This document shows, piece by piece, positions 27,389-42,502 of a stretch of 47,518 nucleotides of DNA. Made by a program: the position numbers and the translations under genes. Positions within the stretch are counted from its first letter, which is position 1. Each line of letters starts with the position of its first letter. Source of the stretch: an uncultured Methanomicrobiales archaeon (GTDB lineage Archaea; Halobacteriota; Methanomicrobia; Methanomicrobiales; Methanospirillaceae). The stretch is from NCBI GenBank assembly GCA_903926075.1, contig CAIYHQ010000037.1, positions 1 to 47,518 of the forward strand, given 5' to 3'. The notes under the pieces are model-generated. The model saw nothing but the letters and a program-made list of their open reading frames with translations. It had not been told where the DNA came from and searched no databases.

Positions 27389-27483
27389 AGGTTGAGAAGT
27401 AATCACTAATAGCTGATAGAATTTCCGGAGTTCACATCGCAATCTTATTTGTGATTAAAAAAAAACAATGTTCTGGTGAAAAT

Positions 27484-28311
27484 ATGAGACTCTTATTTGT
27501 TATATTTCTGATAATTGCAATCCTTTACTTTGCGGCAGTAAACGCTGCCAATACTACATCGGTAAGCACAACTACAAAAATCCCCTCAACTACTGCAAAA
27601 ACGACTACTAAGATTACGACAACTTCTACAACGAAGACTGCAACAACGACGCCGAGAATCCAGGTGACAACAAGACCAACTACAGAATATACAACGGAAG
27701 AAACGACCGAAGGCGTAACAGACACAACAGAGAGTACATCTACTCCAACAGAAACAGAAACAACAGAACCGACACCAACGCGGACCCTGCGACCAAGAAA
27801 TACTACTGCAAACACAACAATACCAACGACAACGGCAACAACAGTAACAATAGCAAAAGCACAGGCAAGTGCAGATGCATCCATGGACAACCCAGCTTAT
27901 TTCCTTGTGACTCCGGTAAAAGGGGACGTTACATTAACTACTAATGAAGGAACTGACTGGGTGGTTGAATATGTAATAATCGGGAGTACTGTGAAGAAAG
28001 TAAATGAAAAAGGGACAATAGGAACTGAAGAGGTTGATATCACATCTGATGGAACGCCCATTTACGTGAAAATTACACCGTATCTTTCAGGAATAACAAA
28101 GAATGTGATACTATATGGAGAAGGCGTCAGTAGCATAACTGCAAAGAGTGAAACACCAGGGCCTTTTAAAGTAGATGGTGCCAGTACCACTGATACTTCA
28201 GGTGTGGGTGCAACAAAGGCACCTGAAACAACAAAATCTCCAACCAGCCTTATTATTGTATTACTTTCGCTCGGAGTTGCGGGTCACCTCGTCATTTATA
28301 AACGAAGATAA
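27484..28311 (+). CDS. Thr-rich surface protein with C-terminal membrane anchor
   Basis: About 275 residues. A signal peptide (MRLLFVIFLIIAILYFAAVNA) is followed by a Thr-rich tract of about 100 residues (TTT/TET runs), probably heavily O-glycosylated. A beta-rich domain of about 100 residues (about 135-235) comes next and shows no motif I recognise. The C terminus has a hydrophobic helix (SLIIVLLSLGVAGHLVIY) and a KRR tail, the layout of an anchored archaeal surface protein. GGTGA precedes ATG 27484 by four bases. The antisense strand of the Thr tract reads as a false Val-rich protein. Confidence 0.78.
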   Translation: MRLLFVIFLIIAILYFAAVNAANTTSVSTTTKIPSTTAKTTTKITTTSTTKTATTTPRIQVTTRPTTEYTTEETTEGVTDTTESTSTPTETETTEPTPTRTLRPRNTTANTTIPTTTATTVTIAKAQASADASMDNPAYFLVTPVKGDVTLTTNEGTDWVVEYVIIGSTVKKVNEKGTIGTEEVDITSDGTPIYVKITPYLSGITKNVILYGEGVSSITAKSETPGPFKVDGASTTDTSGVGATKAPETTKSPTSLIIVLLSLGVAGHLVIYKRR

Positions 28312-31454: not shown

Positions 31455-32657
31455 TCACCTCCGGACTCCCCATTGTTTGAGTGCCCGTTCAAGTTCGTAA
31501 TGATCATGTGCATATTCATGGAGAGGTATCGATTCCAGTGTCGCATCAACAGCCTGCCGCATGGCCCGTGCTCCGGCTGCAGTTCCATCCGGGTGACCAT
31601 GGATACCTCCTCCTGCCTGCAGAACAATATCAGTCCCAAGAGTCTTTATCTCATTTGGGACGAGTCCTGGATGAAGACCTCCACTTACAACGGGGAATGT
31701 CTGCTTAAGACCATAAAAACTGCCCTTCAAAGCTTCATTGTCGGCAACAACTTCCTCTGAAATGTGACTCATCTTTCCTCCTGCCGTTCCGGTGTGGAGT
31801 TGATCGCCCCCTATCATACGCACAAGTCTTGCAAGTGGGCGCATTGCGATTCCATGTTCAGGGTTTCGTGTAAAGGCAGCATGCATGGTCCTATGCACGT
31901 GGATTGGCACCTTTATACTATGATCTTCAGCGAGGGCCTGAACCGCTCCGAATCCTGCAGTAAATACATCAACCATCAACATATTCGCGCCCAGTTCAAT
32001 TGCCTTCTGTCCTGCTTCAACTATTTTATCAGGCCTTGTGGTTACATTTACTGCATATAAAACCATATGACCTGTTTCACTCCTTGCCGAGTCAAGTTTG
32101 TCCATTACCTTTTGGAGGCGCTCGTGTAATGGGCAGAACTGTTGATTTGTGAGGGTCTCATCGTCCTTTATAAGGTCAACTCCCCCAAGTGCAGCTTCAT
32201 ATGCAACAGCAGCAGTATCTGCTGGAGTCAGTCCGACTTTCGGTTTGATTATAGTCCCGACATGTGGCCGTTTAGTAGTCCCGATAAGTCTCCTGACGCC
32301 AGTAATCCCAAATTTGGGGCCTTTGAATGGAACCAGTTCTTCCGGAATGTTGATGTCAAGAAGCCTGACTGCATTGAGACTTTTTAGTCCAAAAAGGTTT
32401 CCGGCGATTACTGATAAGTATTGTGCAATATTTCCACTCTCAAAGATCTCTCCCGGGTACCGGATTGTCGCAATATAACCTTCTTTTTCTGGTTTTATTT
32501 CATCAACTACTCCATCAAGGCGTTTAATATAGGACTGACGTGTTGATATTCCGGTCCATGTACCTGTGGTCTCTTCTTCACAGATAGCTTCTGCAGCCCG
32601 GGACGGAGTTGTATCCTCCCTGGGTTTGAAATAATAGTAAGCAATGAGGTCGCCCAT
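31455..32657 (-). CDS. rbcL: Form III ribulose-bisphosphate carboxylase
   Basis: A 400-residue archaeal RuBisCO. Catalytic features are complete: IIKPKVGL, the carbamylated Lys in LIKDDET, HRTMHAAFTR, GTAGGKM (loop region Lys), VVSGGLHPG and LQAGGGIHGHPDGTAAGA. Sequence type is form III, which works with ribose-1,5-bisphosphate isomerase in AMP salvage; in some Methanomicrobiales a RuBisCO acts in a reductive hexulose-phosphate route together with phosphoribulokinase. ATG 32657 is chosen because GGAGTGA lies five bases before it; GTG 32666 overlaps the stop of the isomerase. No small subunit is expected. Confidence 0.95.
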   Translation of the reverse strand: MGDLIAYYYFKPREDTTPSRAAEAICEEETTGTWTGISTRQSYIKRLDGVVDEIKPEKEGYIATIRYPGEIFESGNIAQYLSVIAGNLFGLKSLNAVRLLDINIPEELVPFKGPKFGITGVRRLIGTTKRPHVGTIIKPKVGLTPADTAAVAYEAALGGVDLIKDDETLTNQQFCPLHERLQKVMDKLDSARSETGHMVLYAVNVTTRPDKIVEAGQKAIELGANMLMVDVFTAGFGAVQALAEDHSIKVPIHVHRTMHAAFTRNPEHGIAMRPLARLVRMIGGDQLHTGTAGGKMSHISEEVVADNEALKGSFYGLKQTFPVVSGGLHPGLVPNEIKTLGTDIVLQAGGGIHGHPDGTAAGARAMRQAVDATLESIPLHEYAHDHYELERALKQWGVRR

Positions 32658-32662
32658 CCAGT

Positions 32663-33625
32663 TCACTCCATATTATCATGAAAGACTCCAGCTTCTCTCT
32701 GGAACTCAATAATATCCCACCCTAAGTAATCCCTGATAATTACATATGCCATTGCCGGAGGTATTGCACCTTCCTCTGTGACAATGAGATCAATGTATTC
32801 CGAGGGTGTCACATCAAAGACCGGGTTTCTCACGGTAACAGAAGGGAGGTCCTTTGCAATTTCGTAAGGAAGGACTTCAAGCGGAGATCGTTCCTCAATC
32901 TCGATAAGTTCTCCGACAAGTGTCCGGGGTGCAAATTTATACGTCTCAGCTGCAACGATAAATGGTGTCCGCGCTTCACGGGCAGCGAGTGCAATCTGCG
33001 ATGTCCCGATTTTGTTGACAACTGCCCCATTAACGACGACTGCATCGGCCCCTACGATAACAAGGTCAACTTTGTTCATGAAAAACCGTACTGCAGAGTC
33101 TACAATGTATTCTGTCCGGATTCCAGCACCACCTAATGTCTTTATTGTCAGGAGACCCTGATTACCGGGCCTGACTTCGGTTGCAATAACAGAAAAACGT
33201 CTGCCCTCTTTTTTGGCGGTAAGAATGCAGGCAAGTGCTGCTTCAGAATTGCAGTGAGTGAGGACAACATCGCCATCCCTGATATGTTTTGAACCAATCT
33301 CCCCTATCCTTTCAACAGCAGAAAGAGAGGACCTAACAAACGCGCGAGACCTCTCCCTGACCATCCTGATGCCTTCATCCCTTGATCCTGCCTTTTTCAC
33401 AACTCTTTCAATAAGGTGAACTGCATTCGGGAGTGACACTGCAGTAGGCCGGGTTGCAATTAAACGGGCCGCAGCTGTCATCATCCCTTGTTGCCAGGTC
33501 ACGAGGTCAGAGGGCGGTAAAGTATCTGCAAATTCACAAAGAGCGGAAACCGCAGCCCTTGCAATGCGCCCTGCACCTCTAATTTCCATTTTTTCGATGG
33601 ATGTGATCGTATCCTGAAATGACAT
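32663..33625 (-). CDS. Ribose-1,5-bisphosphate isomerase
   Basis: A 320-residue member of the eIF2B-like family that makes ribulose-1,5-bisphosphate from ribose-1,5-bisphosphate, the substrate of form III RuBisCO. The catalytic Cys in VVLTHCNSEAAL and the catalytic Asp in VIVGADAVVVNG separate it from non-enzymatic eIF2B subunits. Adjacent RuBisCO, with its ribosome site over the stop of this gene, makes the assignment firm. The third pathway enzyme, AMP phosphorylase (deoA-like), is not in the window. It is divergent from the HAD gene across 58 bases. Confidence 0.94.
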   Translation of the reverse strand: MSFQDTITSIEKMEIRGAGRIARAAVSALCEFADTLPPSDLVTWQQGMMTAAARLIATRPTAVSLPNAVHLIERVVKKAGSRDEGIRMVRERSRAFVRSSLSAVERIGEIGSKHIRDGDVVLTHCNSEAALACILTAKKEGRRFSVIATEVRPGNQGLLTIKTLGGAGIRTEYIVDSAVRFFMNKVDLVIVGADAVVVNGAVVNKIGTSQIALAAREARTPFIVAAETYKFAPRTLVGELIEIEERSPLEVLPYEIAKDLPSVTVRNPVFDVTPSEYIDLIVTEEGAIPPAMAYVIIRDYLGWDIIEFQREAGVFHDNME

Positions 33626-34569: not shown

Positions 34570-36192
34570 ATGAAAATGACCCCACTTATCACAATTGAGA
34601 ACCTTTGCAAGGACTTTAATGGAAAAAGAGTCCTAAATAATATTTCTTTTCAGATTTCAGAGGGAGACAACGTAGGAATTATAGGTAGGAGCGGTGCAGG
34701 GAAAACTGTCCTTATGCACCTTATAAGAGGAGTTGATGACCCACCTTCAAGCGGGAAGATAATATATCATATTGCGGCATGTGACACCTGTGAATACATC
34801 GAAACCCGGAGTGAATCGGGAAAAAAATGCCCACGATGCGAGGGGACTCTGGTTTCTGCCGATATTGACCTGTGGGACCCGAATAATGATTTGATGAAAC
34901 GCAGGGTAATGCAAAGAACTGCAATAATGTTTCAAAGGACTTTTGCATTATACGGAAACGACAGGGTCATTGAAAATGTGTTAAAGGCACTTGATGAGAC
35001 TGGTTACCCACAGGAGCGATCAATTGGCCGGGCAGCCGACCTGCTTGACGAAGTAAAATTGTCTCATAGAATGATGCACATAGCCCGTGATCTATCCGGA
35101 GGAGAGAAACAGAGGGTCGTACTCGCCCGTCAGCTGGCGAAAGAACCTTTTTTCCTCTTTGCTGACGAGCCGACAGGAACCCTTGACCCGAACACTGCGA
35201 AAATTGTCCATTCTTCACTATCAGATGCATCTAAGCAGAACAAGATGGGGATGCTTATCACCTCCCACTTTTCGCAGGTAATAGAAGATGTAACCGACAG
35301 GGCAATCCTGCTTGTTGATGGTGAAATCGAGAAAGTAGGGAGCCCTAATGAAGTAGTCCACCATTTCATGAAAGATTTCCATGATGACGAAACCTATGAT
35401 ATCCCTCCTTTTGGGGACACCCTGCTCTCATCCCACGATATTATAAAACGTTATATTTCCATGGACAGGGGTGTAGTCAAAGCAGTAAACGGGGTCTCGT
35501 TTGATGTTGCGACAAAAGAGATCTTTGGAATAATCGGGAAGAGTGGAGCTGGCAAAACAACCCTTTCGAGGATAATTTCAGGTATAATTGAACCCACAAG
35601 CGGGGAAATGAACATGAAGATAGGGGACGAATGGGTTGACATGACCAAACCTGGAATTGAGAACAGGGGTCGTGCAAAAGGATACATCGGACTCCTTCAC
35701 CAGGAGTATGACCTCTTTCCACATCGAACAGTTCTCGATAACCTTACCGATTCAATTGGTCTTGAATTTCCAAAGGAACTTGCTATCCGGAAGGCAGTAA
35801 TAACACTCCGAATGTCAGGTTATACTGAAAGTAAGGCGAGAGAGATCCTGAACAGGTACCCGGGACAACTTTCAGAAGGTGAACGTCACCGTGTAGCACT
35901 GGCCCAAGTTCTTATTCGCGAGCCAAGACTTGTGATACTGGACGAACCTACAGGGACTATGGACCCGATTACAAAGATAGATGTTAAACACTCCATCCTG
36001 CACGCACGCGATGAGATGGAGGAGACATTTATTCTTGTGTCACATGACATGGAGTTTGTACGTGAGGTATGTGACCGGTGTGCACTTATGAGAGGGGGAA
36101 AGATAATTGAAATAGGGAATACCCACGATGTTCTCGCCCATCTAGACGAAGAAGAGAAAAATGCGAGCGGAGGGGTCGGTGTCAAGGGGTGA
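34570..36192 (+). CDS. atwA: MCR activation ATPase, component A2
   Basis: A 540-residue twin ABC ATPase needed for ATP-dependent reductive activation of methyl-coenzyme M reductase (component A2). Domain 1: Walker A GRSGAGKTVL near 40, a zinc-ribbon-like insert with CDTC and CPRC (about 71-90), signature LSGGEKQR near 176 and Walker B FADEPTG near 200. Domain 2: Walker A GKSGAGKTTL near 323, signature LSEGERHR near 434, Walker B ILDEPTG near 456. No membrane segment is present, so it is a soluble ABC protein. It overlaps the next gene (mmp3), or lies six bases before it if TTG is used there. Confidence 0.95.
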   Translation: MKMTPLITIENLCKDFNGKRVLNNISFQISEGDNVGIIGRSGAGKTVLMHLIRGVDDPPSSGKIIYHIAACDTCEYIETRSESGKKCPRCEGTLVSADIDLWDPNNDLMKRRVMQRTAIMFQRTFALYGNDRVIENVLKALDETGYPQERSIGRAADLLDEVKLSHRMMHIARDLSGGEKQRVVLARQLAKEPFFLFADEPTGTLDPNTAKIVHSSLSDASKQNKMGMLITSHFSQVIEDVTDRAILLVDGEIEKVGSPNEVVHHFMKDFHDDETYDIPPFGDTLLSSHDIIKRYISMDRGVVKAVNGVSFDVATKEIFGIIGKSGAGKTTLSRIISGIIEPTSGEMNMKIGDEWVDMTKPGIENRGRAKGYIGLLHQEYDLFPHRTVLDNLTDSIGLEFPKELAIRKAVITLRMSGYTESKAREILNRYPGQLSEGERHRVALAQVLIREPRLVILDEPTGTMDPITKIDVKHSILHARDEMEETFILVSHDMEFVREVCDRCALMRGGKIIEIGNTHDVLAHLDEEEKNASGGVGVKG

Positions 36193-36197
36193 CTCCG

Positions 36198-37715
36198 TTG
36201 AAGGTCCTCTTTAACGGGGAACAGTTAACTGTCGCAGATGGGGCAGTACTTGGGGATATCCTTCACGAACATGATAGTGAATGTTCTGTTGCACTCATTA
36301 GACCAACTACTACAGAAGAGAAGGATACAAAAGCACTTGAAGTAAAAACAACAGGGGGCCCTGTAACCGTTGAACTTAACCAGTCTGCCGCTGGGATATT
36401 GGGGGTACTTCATGCACCACTTTTCGTCAGATGGGAAGACAGGTATGGTATCGCTTTTGGTGCATTCCGGGCAGACTTTAAACCATCCCGTACTCCTTTC
36501 CTTTATGAGAGGGGAGACTTGGTCCTTGGATGTGCAGGATATAACCCGGATCAATCATTTCTGTTCTTTTCACGTGAACGCCATTCTGCAGACCATGGGT
36601 CTCAAAAAGAGGGTGGTGTAATCGGGAAAGTTGTCAGGGGCAGGGGTATACTTGACCGTTTCCATTCTGGAGATGTTATAGAGAGTATAACTCCGCTTCT
36701 TGCAATTGCTGATACGACCCATGCGTTTACTACTAAAGATTTCACTTTTCCTCTGGAAAACGGGATGTCAATAATAAGCAAAGTTGTAATTTTTGGTCAT
36801 GGTTTTACAAGGGATTCAATTGACATCACAAATTCAGAGATAGTCGAGCACCTCCTTATGGGACTTGAAAAAAAGAGTTTTATTGTTGGCAGATCTTCCT
36901 CGACCCATATCAGGGACGATCACCTTATCAATACTGATTTGGCTGGAGGAAAAAGCCTTCCCAGAAGGGAGGGTTCAGTCACAATCAGGACAAAAGGGAG
37001 GTCAGCGGGAGCAATTTACATAAACACAACAGACCTCCCAAGGACTACATCGCATGCATCAGCCGGACAGGTGATTCAGGGAATTGAACTTGCACAGATA
37101 GCAAAGGCCGGTGAATTATTCGAAGTAAAACTGGAACCTAAACGCTTTGACCTTGTAGGGCTCCCGGTAACTGATGCAAAAGAAAGATCGGTAGACAGGG
37201 GAATTGAATTTAATTTTGATAATATTGAAACAGACAGGGTAGTTGTTTATCAGGAACCTGGAACGACTCTTGAAGTGCTCGCAGAAGGCAAAGTAAAACT
37301 TGTTACAGCATCCTATTCAGAGGTTGTTGATATCATGCTTGATGATAGCAGTTCGCCGGATACCTGTGCAATTTTCCGGAAAATTACCGGGCTCTCGCTT
37401 CATGCAGTTGGGAAAATTCCATTTTTCTTTGGGTTTGATGACGTTTACCTCTTCAAACCCAAAATTCCAACCGGCATCCAGATAATTCCAGAAAATACTC
37501 CGAACGATGTTGTCCCGGCAAATACCCTCGCAATGACCAATGAATCGCGAAAGGGCGTGGGGCTTGTAGGTGTCAGGCTAACTGACAATAGTGAATTCGG
37601 ACCAACCTCTGAGCCTTTTGAGGGTACAAACATCATAGGTAAACTGCTTAACCCTGATAAACTAACAGGGCTAAAGGAGAATTCAATAATTTTTATCAGG
37701 GAAGTGGTGAAATGA
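36198..37715 (+). CDS. mmp3: Methanogenesis marker protein 3
   Basis: About 505 residues, a protein found almost only in methanogens and methanotrophic archaea. It has been identified with the MCR activation complex (component A3a) in earlier biochemical work. A cyclophilin-like beta-barrel region around residues 60-180 has been predicted for the family, and RTKGRSAGAIYINTTD marks a second domain. TTG 36198 is supported by GGGGTGA five bases upstream; GTG 36189, overlapping the atwA stop, is the alternative. The stop overlaps mmp6 (ATGA). Confidence 0.9.
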   Translation: MKVLFNGEQLTVADGAVLGDILHEHDSECSVALIRPTTTEEKDTKALEVKTTGGPVTVELNQSAAGILGVLHAPLFVRWEDRYGIAFGAFRADFKPSRTPFLYERGDLVLGCAGYNPDQSFLFFSRERHSADHGSQKEGGVIGKVVRGRGILDRFHSGDVIESITPLLAIADTTHAFTTKDFTFPLENGMSIISKVVIFGHGFTRDSIDITNSEIVEHLLMGLEKKSFIVGRSSSTHIRDDHLINTDLAGGKSLPRREGSVTIRTKGRSAGAIYINTTDLPRTTSHASAGQVIQGIELAQIAKAGELFEVKLEPKRFDLVGLPVTDAKERSVDRGIEFNFDNIETDRVVVYQEPGTTLEVLAEGKVKLVTASYSEVVDIMLDDSSSPDTCAIFRKITGLSLHAVGKIPFFFGFDDVYLFKPKIPTGIQIIPENTPNDVVPANTLAMTNESRKGVGLVGVRLTDNSEFGPTSEPFEGTNIIGKLLNPDKLTGLKENSIIFIREVVK

Positions 37716-38173
37716 AAGAATATAATCCGGTTTGTAAAGGGAGTGTCACAAAATATGTATTTGTTGAATCTCCATCCTTCACACCATCTGATCTTGCAAT
37801 AAAGGCATACGAAGTATCGCAGGGTGTAATGATAAAAGAGACCTGCTTTGGACTTCAGATAACAGGGAATGAAAACGAGATCGAGACAATTGTAGAACTT
37901 CTGCGAAAGCTAGACCCTCTTCACATCTTTGTTAAGGACCGTGGATTTCCACCTGGTGACAACCGCAGGTGCAGGTCAAACCTCGGAGGTGCACGGCCAG
38001 GTTACTTTGGTCATGAATTCGAGATGGGGCTCCTCCATTTTATCTCTTATGGATTAAAATCGCTGGATAGTTCTTCAACTCCTGATAATGAGCCACTTCA
38101 AAGAAAAATGATTGAAAAAATTCCACTTCCTCTGGAAAAACTCAGACAAATAATTGATTCCGAGGTGAATTAG
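37712..38173 (+). CDS. mmp6: Methanogenesis marker protein 6
   Basis: A 153-residue methanogen-specific protein, reported in the MCR activation (A3a) complex. Three cysteines (residues about 8, 45 and 87) and a conserved basic region RGFPPGDNRRCRSNLGGA in the centre are seen, without any known catalytic motif. It overlaps mmp3 by four bases and lies two bases before mmp5. Function within the complex is not known to me. Confidence 0.9.
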   Translation: MKEYNPVCKGSVTKYVFVESPSFTPSDLAIKAYEVSQGVMIKETCFGLQITGNENEIETIVELLRKLDPLHIFVKDRGFPPGDNRRCRSNLGGARPGYFGHEFEMGLLHFISYGLKSLDSSSTPDNEPLQRKMIEKIPLPLEKLRQIIDSEVN

Positions 38174-38175
38174 CA

Positions 38176-38625
38176 ATGGCTAAGGTTTTTATATACCCTG
38201 CAACAAGTCTCATGCTCTCTGACCTAGTTGCCAGATTCGGACATAAACCACTTGGTTCAGCGATATCAGTCCGGGATCATATCCAGACGGCTGGTTTTGA
38301 GTCACCTCCACTCCAGATGACACCGGATGATCCAAAGAAGGGGCTTAAATATGCCGCGGTTGAGGTCCCTTCCGGTGTCAGGGGCAGAATGTCACTTTAT
38401 GGTCCTCTTATTGAAGATGCAGATGCCGCAATTATAGTAAACGATTCAGACTACGCATTTGGCTGTATGGGGTGTGCCAGAACAAACGAACTTGTAAAAT
38501 TCCTTATTAAGGAGCGAAAAATGCCAATTATTGAATTACTTTATCCCTCGACAGAAGAGGAGGGAGTTACATTTGTACGCTCCATCCGGTCATTTCTTGA
38601 TTCACTAAAGGATGGTTCCCCATGA
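38176..38625 (+). CDS. mmp5: Methanogenesis marker protein 5, dehydratase-like fold
   Basis: A 149-residue methanogen-specific protein. It has a CxxC (FGCMGCA, Cys97 and Cys100) followed by [19 protein letters not shown], a TEEE, and an R..R.FLDSL end. This order (cysteines, helix, P-I-I/V strand, then R and a terminal helix) resembles the last 60 residues of 2-hydroxyacyl-CoA dehydratase/double-cubane subunits and also the N-terminal extension of Mmp15, encoded next. GAGGTGA lies upstream of the ATG and the stop overlaps mmp15 by four bases. Role unknown; a cluster-binding partner of Mmp15 is my inference. Confidence 0.88.
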
Positions 38626-39860
38626 CTGTTCCGGTCCGGATAGCACAACTATCCTGCGGTCCCGAATATAGCGGTGTCCAGAATGAGATAAATGAAGCTG
38701 CAAGGATGGTCGATGCAGAAGTCTTCTATCCTGATATCAAACTTTCAGAATTAAGACGGGATTTCGATTCATTTGGACTGGACGTGAGAAGCCCGGACCT
38801 CAAACTTGCAATTGCCCGTGCAAAAGCCCTTGTTGACGGCAGAGTAAATGCAGACGCAGTTTTTATTGCTTCCTGTTTCAGATGTGCCGAAGCTGCAATT
38901 GTAAGAAACGAGCTCCGGAGGTTTATCCATGAAAATTCAAGACTGCCGGTGGTAAGTTATTCATTTACAGAAAGAACAACTGCGGCAACGCTTCTTACCC
39001 GTATGGAAGCCCTGACAACAATAGCGAGAAGGAGAGCACTCCTTGCACGGGAAGTCCAGGAAGGAATAACAATGGGTGTAGACAGCGGTTCAAGCACCAC
39101 AAAGGCAATCGTCATGAAAGATAACGTTGTGGTCGGAACTGGCTGGAAACCTACAACCGAAGTTATGAAAAGTGCAGAGGATGTTATTACAACTGCACTT
39201 GAAGAAGCTGGGTTACATATGGAAGACCTGGATGCGGTAGGTACCACCGGATATGGAAGATTTCTTGTCGGAAAGAAAATTGGTGCAGACCTTATCCAGG
39301 AAGAACTTACAGTCAACTCAAAGGGAGCAGTATACCTTGCTGACTGTCAACACGGTCCTTCCACAGTCCTTGATATCGGTGGGATGGATAACAAGGCAAT
39401 AAGTGTTCAGGACGGGATCCCCGGGACTTTCACAATGGGTGGGATCTGTGCCGGTGCAAGTGGCAGATTCCTTGAAATGACTTCAAAGAGACTTGGTGTT
39501 GAGATAACTGAACTTGGGCCACTTGCTATGAATGGTAAATGGGATAAAGTCGCCATGAACAGCTATTGTATTGTCTTTGGCACCCAAAGCCTCGTTAATG
39601 CACTTGCCGCAGGAAGTTTCCGTGAGGATGTCGCCGCAGCGGCGTGTCACAGCGTTGCTGAACAGGTCTTTGAACAACAGCTTCAGGAAGTGGATATCAA
39701 GGAACCCGTTATCATGGTTGGCGGAACCTCCCTGATAACCGGGCTTGTCCATGCAATGGGTGAACTTTTACAGACAAATATTGTTGTCCCACGCTATTCA
39801 CAATATATTGGTGCAGTTGGATCAGCCCTTCTTGCATCAGGTTTTATCAAAGGAGAATAG
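38622..39860 (+). CDS. mmp15: Methanogenesis marker protein 15, ASKHA activase-type ATPase
   Basis: A 412-residue protein. Residues about 149-412 are a BadF/BadG/HgdC-type ASKHA ATPase: phosphate loops [12 protein letters not shown] and [10 protein letters not shown], plus VGGTSLITG and [11 protein letters not shown]. The two cysteines that hold the inter-subunit [4Fe-4S] cluster in HgdC activases are kept: [10 protein letters not shown] (Cys276) and [10 protein letters not shown] (Cys316), 40 residues apart. Residues 1-145 are an extension with Cys12, and Cys85-x2-Cys88 (ASCFRCAEA), similar to Mmp5. Activases inject low-potential electrons using ATP. Predicted job: energising electrons in MCR activation or its metal clusters (inference). 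Confidence 0.9.
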
Positions 39861-40442
39861 ATGCTCTCGATAGAGTATTTCCAGGTCGAATGTTATGACG
39901 AGACAGGGAGAGAATACTATGAGCAACTGGCAGAAGTCGTGCTTCTCGACCACAATATGCTCAGAGTCGTTCATAAACTGCATATATTCATCGATCCACG
40001 AATCCCGATATTTGTTGCCACAGGTGTAACAAAGACCATTCATTCACATATAACGGTAAATGATTTTGCAAACGTCCAGATAGAGGGCGGGAAAGTTACA
40101 ATTGCAATCGGAGAGGAGACTTACCTATCAGAACTTCTCCGGATTCTGTGGGAAAAATTCGGAAAAGACCATGTAGATCAACCGGACCGGTTTACAATAA
40201 TTCTAAATCTGACAAAAGAAGAGGCACAGAAAATAGCCGATATGGTAGTTGTTGACCCGAGTGAAAACCTTTACCGGGATCTTATCTATGCCCTGCAGGT
40301 CATTGCACCTGAGGGATTCAAAGTCAGGCGCCAGTACTATGGAAAAGAGAGATTCTACTACATCGCAAGTGAAAATACACTTACAGAATCAGCAGATGTC
40401 CTTATCAGGGAGAAATTTGCCCTGATGGGAGAATCATTATGA
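39861..40442 (+). CDS. mmp17: Methanogenesis marker protein 17
   Basis: A 193-residue methanogen-specific protein with alternating beta and helix, only one cysteine and no known motif. Members of the family were found in the ATP-driven MCR activation complex with McrC, Mmp3 and Mmp7, where they have structural roles. Its ATG directly follows the stop of mmp15, and its stop overlaps the mmp7 start (ATGA), so expression is tightly coupled. Confidence 0.9.
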   Translation: MLSIEYFQVECYDETGREYYEQLAEVVLLDHNMLRVVHKLHIFIDPRIPIFVATGVTKTIHSHITVNDFANVQIEGGKVTIAIGEETYLSELLRILWEKFGKDHVDQPDRFTIILNLTKEEAQKIADMVVVDPSENLYRDLIYALQVIAPEGFKVRRQYYGKERFYYIASENTLTESADVLIREKFALMGESL

Positions 40443-41377
40443 TTCTCGTACCTATTACGTACAAAGGCGGAGTTTTCCGGCACGACGAGATAGTTGACCT
40501 AATTGAAGACCTGGGCGGTTATATCATACAGAAACATATGATAGCCCAGGAAGTCGTAATTCAGGCGATAGTCCCGAAAGACGATATAGAACTCATCCAG
40601 AAGATAGGAAAACCTCTGACCGGAGACGTGACTCCGTCCCCTCTTGTAGGTACTGAGATTGCTGTGGTGAGCATGAGCCTTGAGATTCATCACCTCCCTC
40701 ATGCATCCTGTGATCTTGCTGAGTATATCAGGAGATCAGGTGCAAAGAGCAACATGGTAGGTCTCTCGCGCGGATTTGGAAAAAGAATATCACAGATGAA
40801 CGACGAGGAGAGGGATGTCATCAATGAGCATGACTGCGCTGTATATCTTTTTGGAAATTTTGAAACCTGTATTGAATATAAAATCCCGGTATTAAGAAGG
40901 GGGATTACTGTCCCGATTATAGTCTGTGGCGCTCCTTCACGTGAAAGACTTATCGAGATAATTAACCCGCCTGTTGCTGGATATGTTGGTCACGTAGGAA
41001 GGTTTATGCACCGCACGAAGGAGTCAGAAGAGATTTCAGTCCTTGATGATGTGATTGCAGAGGTGACAAGAGTTCTGGATGAAAAAAGAGAGGAGATAGC
41101 AAAAGATCCACTTTCAGTCTCACCAGCAAGGCTTATGGACCTCATTCATGAACAGGTCCAGGAGATCCATGAAGTAACGTCTCCAACCCCGGTAACAGTC
41201 CAGATTGCGGGATTAAGGGTGAAACTTCCGTACGACTTCTTTGCAGAAAAAATAAGGGATATAATAGTGGAAGAGGGCATTCTTTTACGAAAAATTGCGG
41301 ATATACTCCCCTCACGCATGAGGGATTATATTTTAATCAGGATTCACCCTTTTTCTGAATCCAACTTGCTTTTATAG
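40439..41377 (+). CDS. mmp7: Methanogenesis marker protein 7
   Basis: A 312-residue protein unique to methanogenic and related archaea and part of the MCR activation complex. Cysteines near residues 91, 133, 144 and 163 (ASCDLAEY, HDCAVYLF, ETCIEYK, IVCGAP) are candidate metal-cluster ligands; recent structural work on this complex described nitrogenase-type iron-sulfur clusters in it. The C-terminal 90 residues are helical and charged. It is the last gene of the operon; a T-run follows the stop. mcrC itself is not in the window and is presumably with the mcr operon. Confidence 0.92.
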   Translation: MILVPITYKGGVFRHDEIVDLIEDLGGYIIQKHMIAQEVVIQAIVPKDDIELIQKIGKPLTGDVTPSPLVGTEIAVVSMSLEIHHLPHASCDLAEYIRRSGAKSNMVGLSRGFGKRISQMNDEERDVINEHDCAVYLFGNFETCIEYKIPVLRRGITVPIIVCGAPSRERLIEIINPPVAGYVGHVGRFMHRTKESEEISVLDDVIAEVTRVLDEKREEIAKDPLSVSPARLMDLIHEQVQEIHEVTSPTPVTVQIAGLRVKLPYDFFAEKIRDIIVEEGILLRKIADILPSRMRDYILIRIHPFSESNLLL

Positions 41378-41858: not shown

Positions 41859-41935
41859 GTACGCCTTGATGCAGATGGAGAGACTGATAATAGAGAAACA
41901 AGTAAATAATATTGTTATTGAATGATCTTGTATCT

Positions 41936-42502
41936 ATGAAGCTACTGGCATTATTCACAACTCTTACCTGCATGCTCCTGGTCGTCTCATTTGTCCAGGC
42001 TGCAGATACGACCGTCCCAACTATTCCATTCCCCTGGCCAACTCAGAATAAAGTGACTGTTACAGTAAGTGTGGCACCTCCTTTAGTGACTGTCCCGCAG
42101 AAACCTGTGATTGTTATACCGAGTTCACCTGCTAAATTAAATATAACTACTCTCGCAGTTCTCGTTATCAGCCTGCCTACCGTTGCCGGACCAAAGATTA
42201 CAGTTCCGGCCGCTCCGGTTATACCCATACCAACACGTGGAGCAACTCCTGTTATTCCTACCCTTGCTCCTCTTAACCTTACATTGCCCAAGGTAGCAAC
42301 TCCTTCGATAACTATCCCGGCAGTCCCGACAATTCCTCTCCCGGGTACTATTGCAAATCCACAGATTACTACACCTGCAAACCCGTCAATCAGTGTTCCA
42401 GCTGCACTTGCAACTCCGAATGTTCAAGTATCTGTTGCGACCCCGGCTGTAACAGTCCCAGCAATCCCGACACTGCCGCAGCCGACCTATAGTTCAACCT
42501 AA
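41936..42502 (+). CDS. Secreted Val/Pro/Ile-repeat protein
   Basis: About 188 residues. A signal peptide (MKLLALFTTLTCMLLVVSFVQA) is followed by nothing but low-complexity sequence made of Val, Ile, Pro, Thr and Ala. The motif [V/I]P.[A/I/V]P.[I/L]P.P recurs (VPTIPFPWP, VPAAPVIPIP, IPAVPTIPLP, VPAIPTLPQP) among TVTV/ITVP strands. It has almost no charged residues, no cysteine after the signal and no membrane anchor. It resembles hydrophobic, elastic or beta-spiral repeats, but I know no family for it. ATG 41936 is preferred over TTG 41912 because the signal peptide begins there. Codon use looks native. Confidence 0.7.
   Translation: MKLLALFTTLTCMLLVVSFVQAADTTVPTIPFPWPTQNKVTVTVSVAPPLVTVPQKPVIVIPSSPAKLNITTLAVLVISLPTVAGPKITVPAAPVIPIPTRGATPVIPTLAPLNLTLPKVATPSITIPAVPTIPLPGTIANPQITTPANPSISVPAALATPNVQVSVATPAVTVPAIPTLPQPTYSST

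Follow-up and report, generated by a model that had tools for sequence, protein, structure and literature searches.

Methanogenesis marker 15 (Mmp15) clearly contains, in its residues 148–412, a genuine HgdC/BcrAD-type activase, and this is preceded by an N-terminal domain (Mmp15N) whose homology to the C-terminal domain of 2-hydroxyacyl-CoA dehydratase subunits (HGD-D, PF06050) is well supported by profile comparison; homology of the neighboring marker 5 protein (Mmp5) to the same domain is supported by the same approach, in part through its CxxC motif. Together with Mmp6, the two proteins constitute a candidate dedicated ATP-driven redox module that, judged from sequence, accompanies MCR across the phylum sampled. 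The mmp operon is already known, its gene cluster at least since the phylogenetic profiling list of 2011 (PMC3226654), as is the activase annotation of Mmp15; in the literature searched, which covered few subscription papers, we found neither the dehydratase C-domain homology of Mmp15N and Mmp5, nor a measured mmp5–mmp15 pairing and co-occurrence with McrA, nor the Mmp6–Mmp5 fusion and the Mmp15 duplication described below. These findings bear on the in vivo reduction of F430 to Ni(I) in methanogens, for which the purified activation complex is inefficient and depends on Ti(III) citrate; Mmp15 and Mmp5 are well-placed candidates for the natural electron source that is still missing from MCR activation. 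Mmp15, Mmp5, and Mmp6 make up a short list of proteins for an in vitro activation assay, with a bearing also on the heterologous production of active MCR, on blocking methane production, and on how electron pumps of the benzoyl-CoA-reductase and nitrogenase types met in one old pathway.

The activation operon and the activase domain of Mmp15

The window, that is, the whole stretch of 47,518 nucleotides that was analyzed, from an uncultured Methanomicrobiales archaeon, carries on its plus strand, between positions 34570 and 41377, the genes A2–mmp3–mmp6–mmp5–mmp15–mmp17–mmp7, with overlaps of 4 bases or near-contact between neighboring ORFs and with all of them scoring over their own NCBIfam cut-offs. 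A2/AtwA, the ABC ATPase (34570–36192; 856 bits, cut-off 517), Mmp3 (36189–37715), Mmp17 (39861–40442), and Mmp7, the subunit with the FeSIII ligands (40439–41377), form together with McrC the MCR activation complex, the structure of which was published in 2025 (PMC12176620). In the window's Mmp7, His85, Cys91, and Cys144 are invariant and correspond, with an offset of one residue, to H84, C90, and C143 of the M. maripaludis structure, in which H84 and C143 are FeSIII ligands and C90 lies nearby (PMC12176620). The genes mmp6 (marker 6; 37712–38173, 153 residues), mmp5 (marker 5, DUF2112; 38176–38625, 149 residues; NCBIfam 228.9 bits, cut-off 140), and mmp15 (38622–39860; 733 bits, cut-off 456) stand between mmp3 and mmp17, with mmp5 directly 5′ of mmp15 and sharing 4 bases with it, the latter two ORFs lying where the sequence-only reading that preceded this analysis had placed them. 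The paper on the activation complex does not name Mmp5, Mmp6, or Mmp15, and its authors presume that more Mmp proteins of the locus are required (PMC12176620). Elsewhere in the window, a type III RuBisCO-like ORF was recognized by eye beside a ribose-1,5-bisphosphate isomerase-like ORF (31455–33625), and two ORFs of low complexity, rich in Thr and Pro and opening with signal-peptide-like sequences, occur at 27451–28311 and 41912–42502, the second of them just 3′ of the mmp operon.

The activase (ASKHA) domain of Mmp15 (39063–39860) matches both PF01869 (BcrAD_BadFG; 240.4 bits, cut-off 31.5) and TIGR00241 (CoA_E_activ; 313.7 bits, cut-off 125.4). Its Cys276 (39447–39449) and Cys316 (39567–39569), with exactly the spacing of 40 residues that had been read from the sequence, align with the first and second [4Fe-4S] cysteines of the HgdC-type activators 1hux and 4eht, and these two cysteines and the ASKHA loops ([14 protein letters not shown]367-368) are invariant or nearly so among the 79 Mmp15 sequences, as is GGMDNK, which stands where the solved activators have a GGQD loop; the ASKHA loops and other motifs quoted earlier are all present in the ORFs. 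Six cysteines of Mmp15 (12, 85, 88, 276, 316, and 342) are invariant in this alignment, among them Cys342 (39645–39647), which belongs to the activase domain. The AlphaFold model of Mmp15 has a mean pLDDT of 91, and a search of the PDB with the N-terminal and activase domains together gave the matches 9gai_D, 4eht, and 1hux (TM 0.87–0.94 on the target), the best being MbdQ of 3-methylbenzoyl-CoA reductase and the activators of hydroxyisocaproyl- and hydroxyglutaryl-CoA dehydratase.

The N-terminal domain of Mmp15 and its relation to Mmp5

The extra region at the Mmp15 N-terminus, earlier put at 145 residues, is a domain of 147 residues (38622–39062). That it and Mmp5 resemble dehydratase and double-cubane subunits at their C-terminal end was borne out by profile–profile comparison. 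Profiles were built from 79 Mmp15, 71 Mmp5, and 51 HGD-D sequences, and among the 36 pairs that nine profiles give in hhalign only three exceed a P of 5.8. HGD-D is matched by Mmp15N at P 89.5 (E 2e-6) and by Mmp5 at P 75.6 (E 2.4e-5), while Mmp15N and Mmp5 match each other at P 40.7 (E 3e-4). The aligned part comprises only the C-terminal ~75–120 columns of HGD-D, and the homologous stretch of Mmp5, itself a single α/β domain, runs from about residue 69 to 144; the invariant third cysteine of HGD-D pairs with Cys88 of Mmp15 and Cys97 of Mmp5. The scores against HGD-D (46.2 for Mmp15N and 39.8 for Mmp5) were reached by none of 100 column permutations each, the maxima of which were 29.2 and 27.3, respectively. 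Masking the cysteines lowered the Mmp15N score to 44.5 and that of Mmp5 to 30.5, slightly over its permutation maximum. When 52 unsupervised families from neighboring loci, 50 of them unrelated controls, were compared with HGD-D, Mmp15 (30.5) and Mmp5 (30.3) came out on top, followed by a third family at 24.2.

In the AlphaFold models the order of strands and helices is the same in Mmp5 and Mmp15N, with a CxxC after strand 3 in both. A fold search of the PDB with Mmp5 gave no significant match, so that its structural case consists of topology and profile, and neither Mmp5 nor Mmp15 matches the full-length Pfam family PF06050 even at E ≤ 1. The N-terminal cysteine pair of HGD-D, Cys50 and Cys80, has no counterpart in Mmp15N or Mmp5. 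What the two proteins do carry is Cys12 at the end of strand 1 (38655–38657) and the CxxC of Cys85 and Cys88 (38874–38885) in Mmp15N, as placed by alignment and model, and the CxxC of Cys97 and Cys100 in Mmp5 (38464–38475), candidate cluster ligands that are invariant in 71 sequences. Mmp15N and Mmp5 thus have five invariant cysteines together; a double cubane normally has six. The invariance extends to Archaeoglobi and to divergent lineages with alkyl-CoM-reductase-like McrA, and since the cysteines are kept in every lineage sampled, their non-conservation, which the sequence-only reading had named as grounds for giving it up, can no longer be held against it. The idea of an activase fused to part of its acceptor is likewise upheld, in that Mmp15N is homologous to the C-terminal domain of the acceptor family.

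Other relationships of these domains were considered. A visual likeness around the cysteines had suggested Mmp5 or Mmp15N as relatives of Mmp7 and McrC, and this was rejected (P 0.7–0.8). Mmp15N might also handle sulfur, by transfer or removal, on a three-cysteine [4Fe-4S] cluster with an open site that the activase resets, in the manner of the 4-thiouridine desulfidase TudS (PF04463), which is related to the BCR/HAD family, consists of one domain, and has a [4Fe-5S]-type cluster (PMC11971306); Mmp15N likewise consists of one domain, with three invariant cysteines. TudS, however, works without an activase, and its profile gave P 0.5 with Mmp15N and P 0.3 with Mmp5, although this profile is shallow (13 sequences) and missed HGD-D as well. 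With no similarity to this profile, TudS as the closer kin was rejected, and a sulfur-handling role appears quite improbable.

Occurrence with MCR, pairing, and duplication

Among 197 Halobacteriota genomes, Mmp5 was found in 122, Mmp15 over its cut-off in 123, McrA in 120, and PF04609 (McrC/Mmp7) in 123. Of the 197, 117 have Mmp5 as well as McrA and 72 have neither, with 5 genomes having Mmp5 alone and 3 McrA alone (Fisher P 1e-43, a figure that ignores relatedness among the genomes). Incomplete assemblies or a spurious match account for the discordant genomes: in G054 a true absence was rejected in favor of what looks like an assembly gap at the mmp5 site, because one contig begins inside mmp6 and another stops just past mmp17; the weak McrA match of G137 (E 2e-4) is probably false; and G112 is probably an incomplete genome. 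An informative case is the Archaeoglobi-like family f9, all McrA-positive genomes of which have the mmp5–mmp15 pair, whereas none of the listed McrA-negative genomes does. The wide contig scan returned Methanomicrobiales-type genomes only, and other phyla are therefore represented by the M. jannaschii control alone, which is positive for both Mmp5 and McrA. This almost perfect tracking of McrA, together with the placement in the operon of the known complex, bears out the earlier assignment of mmp5 and mmp15 to the MCR activation genes.

Could Mmp15 nevertheless be an ordinary activase that serves another methanogen reductase, its place in the operon reflecting co-regulation only? The genome of the window has a separate canonical HgdB-like/HgdC-like pair (L170:5508-7618, G000:C69), so that the cell does possess activase chemistry, but this pair has its own activase. 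PF06050 proteins occur in 23 of 120 genomes and were found neither in at least 19 listed Mmp15-positive genomes nor in the M. acetivorans control; with HGD-D missing from so many of its hosts, Mmp15 cannot rely on a dehydratase subunit of the canonical kind and needs another acceptor. Mmp15 moreover follows MCR, down to a copy (L153:2805-8010, family f24) that is transcribed divergently from an mcrBGA-like (alkyl-CoM reductase) operon some 160 bases away. Service to an unrelated reductase is accordingly highly improbable.

The two genes are adjacent in 118 of the 122 genomes with mmp5, and they stay together where the remaining operon is dispersed (L160 of family f18 and L157 of f10). In those Archaeoglobi-like genomes that carry mcr, a single ORF encodes an Mmp6–Mmp5 fusion (L151:5669-6496, L152:6337-7167, and L249:6945-7745), which links Mmp6 to Mmp5 and Mmp15. 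The mmp6 gene of the window lies immediately 5′ of mmp5, and its product has two cysteines that are invariant, Cys45 and Cys87; these together with the fusion make a trio of Mmp6, Mmp5, and Mmp15 the more likely functional unit, leaving doubtful the description of Mmp5 and Mmp15 as a "minimal" pair. Two f24 genomes have a TGA in frame in mmp6, for which selenocysteine was considered and rejected, this TGA being the ordinary stop codon. Mmp15 itself is duplicated in families f10 and f24, which from their McrA sets are probably ANME-1 and Alkanophagales, with 28 genomes concerned in all (L156, L157, L153, and L154 among the loci). The copies fall into two clades older than the f10/f24 split, and all six cysteines are present in the copies that were aligned. 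Of the two f10 copies, one adjoins mmp5 and the other stands alone. With two Mmp15 to one Mmp5 in these families, Mmp15 may act without Mmp5.

A proposed role in MCR activation and comparison with known systems

In class I benzoyl-CoA reductases, ATP hydrolysis by the activase can in principle bring ferredoxin electrons to about −1 V, and the electrons are stored on an [8Fe-9S] double cubane in the acceptor subunit (PMC11971306). Free F430 needs about −650 mV, and the purified MCR activation complex needs Ti(III) citrate in vitro, which DTT fails to replace (PMC12176620). From the homologies, cysteine conservation, operon, pairing, and co-occurrence described above, we infer a scheme of clusters, protein contact, ATP use, electron direction, and target, as follows. 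Mmp15, probably a homodimer, would be an ATP-driven Fe–S reductase of the HgdC/BcrAD type, with one [4Fe-4S] cluster presumably held by Cys276 and Cys316 of both protomers; its N-terminal domain would derive from the acceptor side, with Cys12, Cys85, and Cys88 placed for a putative second cluster; and Mmp5, as a second copy of the acceptor domain type with two invariant cysteines, would be the partner of Mmp15 and probably also of Mmp6. Electrons from ferredoxin, powered by ATP, would then be delivered at very low potential to the complex of A2, Mmp3, Mmp7, Mmp17, and McrC, the 8Fe clusters of which would hand them on to Ni(II)-F430. That Mmp15 and Mmp5, probably with Mmp6, are the ATP-driven low-potential electron donor for MCR activation, in the place of Ti(III) citrate, is a tentative proposal, which we consider quite possible, and the electron-injector interpretation of the sequence-only reading is in this sense partly supported. 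More doubtful is the specific version in which the Mmp6–Mmp5–Mmp15 trio drives electrons from ferredoxin into FeSIII, the surface 8Fe cluster of Mmp7/Mmp17, at potentials below about −600 mV. If the trio reading is true, the ATP engine and half of the acceptor would sit in one chain, the other half being Mmp5, and benzoyl-CoA-reductase machinery would be joined to MCR/nitrogenase cluster machinery in one pathway.

Several observations weigh against electron injection. Mmp5 has no significant PDB match and a Cys-masked profile score near the control margin; f10 and f24 have two Mmp15 but one Mmp5; and any role dedicated to MCR is compatible with the co-occurrence. Activases of the HgdC type often bind only transiently, but it still counts against injection that Mmp5 and Mmp15 are not stable subunits of the activation complex, both being absent among the proteins co-purified with McrC (PMC12176620). 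The in vitro ATP need is, furthermore, already explained by A2, and AMP-PNP also supports some activation (PMC12176620). Another ATP-driven donor has in fact been suggested, namely a nitrogenase Fe-protein homologue in fraction A3a, to which A2 would carry ATP according to a review of the A2/A3a work (PMC7581889); no such homologue was among the proteins purified with McrC (PMC12176620), however, and the mmp operon of the window has no gene for one, so that we regard this donor as improbable in the place of Mmp15, although both could act.

The weightiest alternative, which we consider somewhat less probable than electron injection, is that Mmp15 and Mmp5, with Mmp6, mature, reduce, or insert the [8Fe-9S-C]-like clusters of McrC/Mmp7 after NifB and donate no electrons to F430. 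To our knowledge, HgdC-type activases are electron donors and not cluster builders, which counts against such a role, as, less directly, does the Pfam scan of Mmp5 and Mmp15, which reported no NifX, NafY, or NifEN family. The spare CxxC pairs of Mmp5 and Mmp15N and the two cysteines of Mmp6 would nonetheless suit a cluster carrier, and absence from the purified active complex would suit a maturation factor. The complex does hold three 8Fe clusters, which NifB is thought to supply (PMC12176620), and NifB-like matches (E ≤ 0.001) occur in 15 of the 16 genomes checked, two of the 15 having only fragments or weak matches and the exception being the McrA-negative G042. A distribution that follows MCR, a place in the operon, and invariant cysteines are expected of cluster assembly and electron injection alike, and the genomic data thus do not separate the two.

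Compared with known systems, Mmp15 resembles the HgdC/HadI-type activators (1hux, 4eht; TIGR00241, PF01869) in its ASKHA nucleotide loops, its cluster cysteines about 40 residues apart, and its fold, but differs from them in the 147-residue acceptor-type N-terminal domain with three invariant cysteines, in having GGMDNK where they have GGQDxK, and in the extra invariant Cys342, which aligns with a non-cysteine residue in 4eht and 1hux. With the subunits of 2-hydroxyacyl-CoA dehydratases, class I benzoyl-CoA reductases, and double-cubane proteins (PF06050), Mmp15N and Mmp5 share the C-terminal domain, its invariant cysteine, and a TRIEAF-like end, while they lack the N-terminal domain, with its two cysteines, of these two-α/β-domain subunits; to TudS they have no detectable sequence similarity by its shallow 13-sequence profile. 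As for the McrC–Mmp7–Mmp17–Mmp3–A2 activation complex, Mmp5, Mmp6, and Mmp15 are outside it as purified, whereas Mmp5 and Mmp15 share with A2, Mmp3, Mmp17, and Mmp7 one operon and one set of genomes, and the window's Mmp7 keeps the cluster ligands of the complex.
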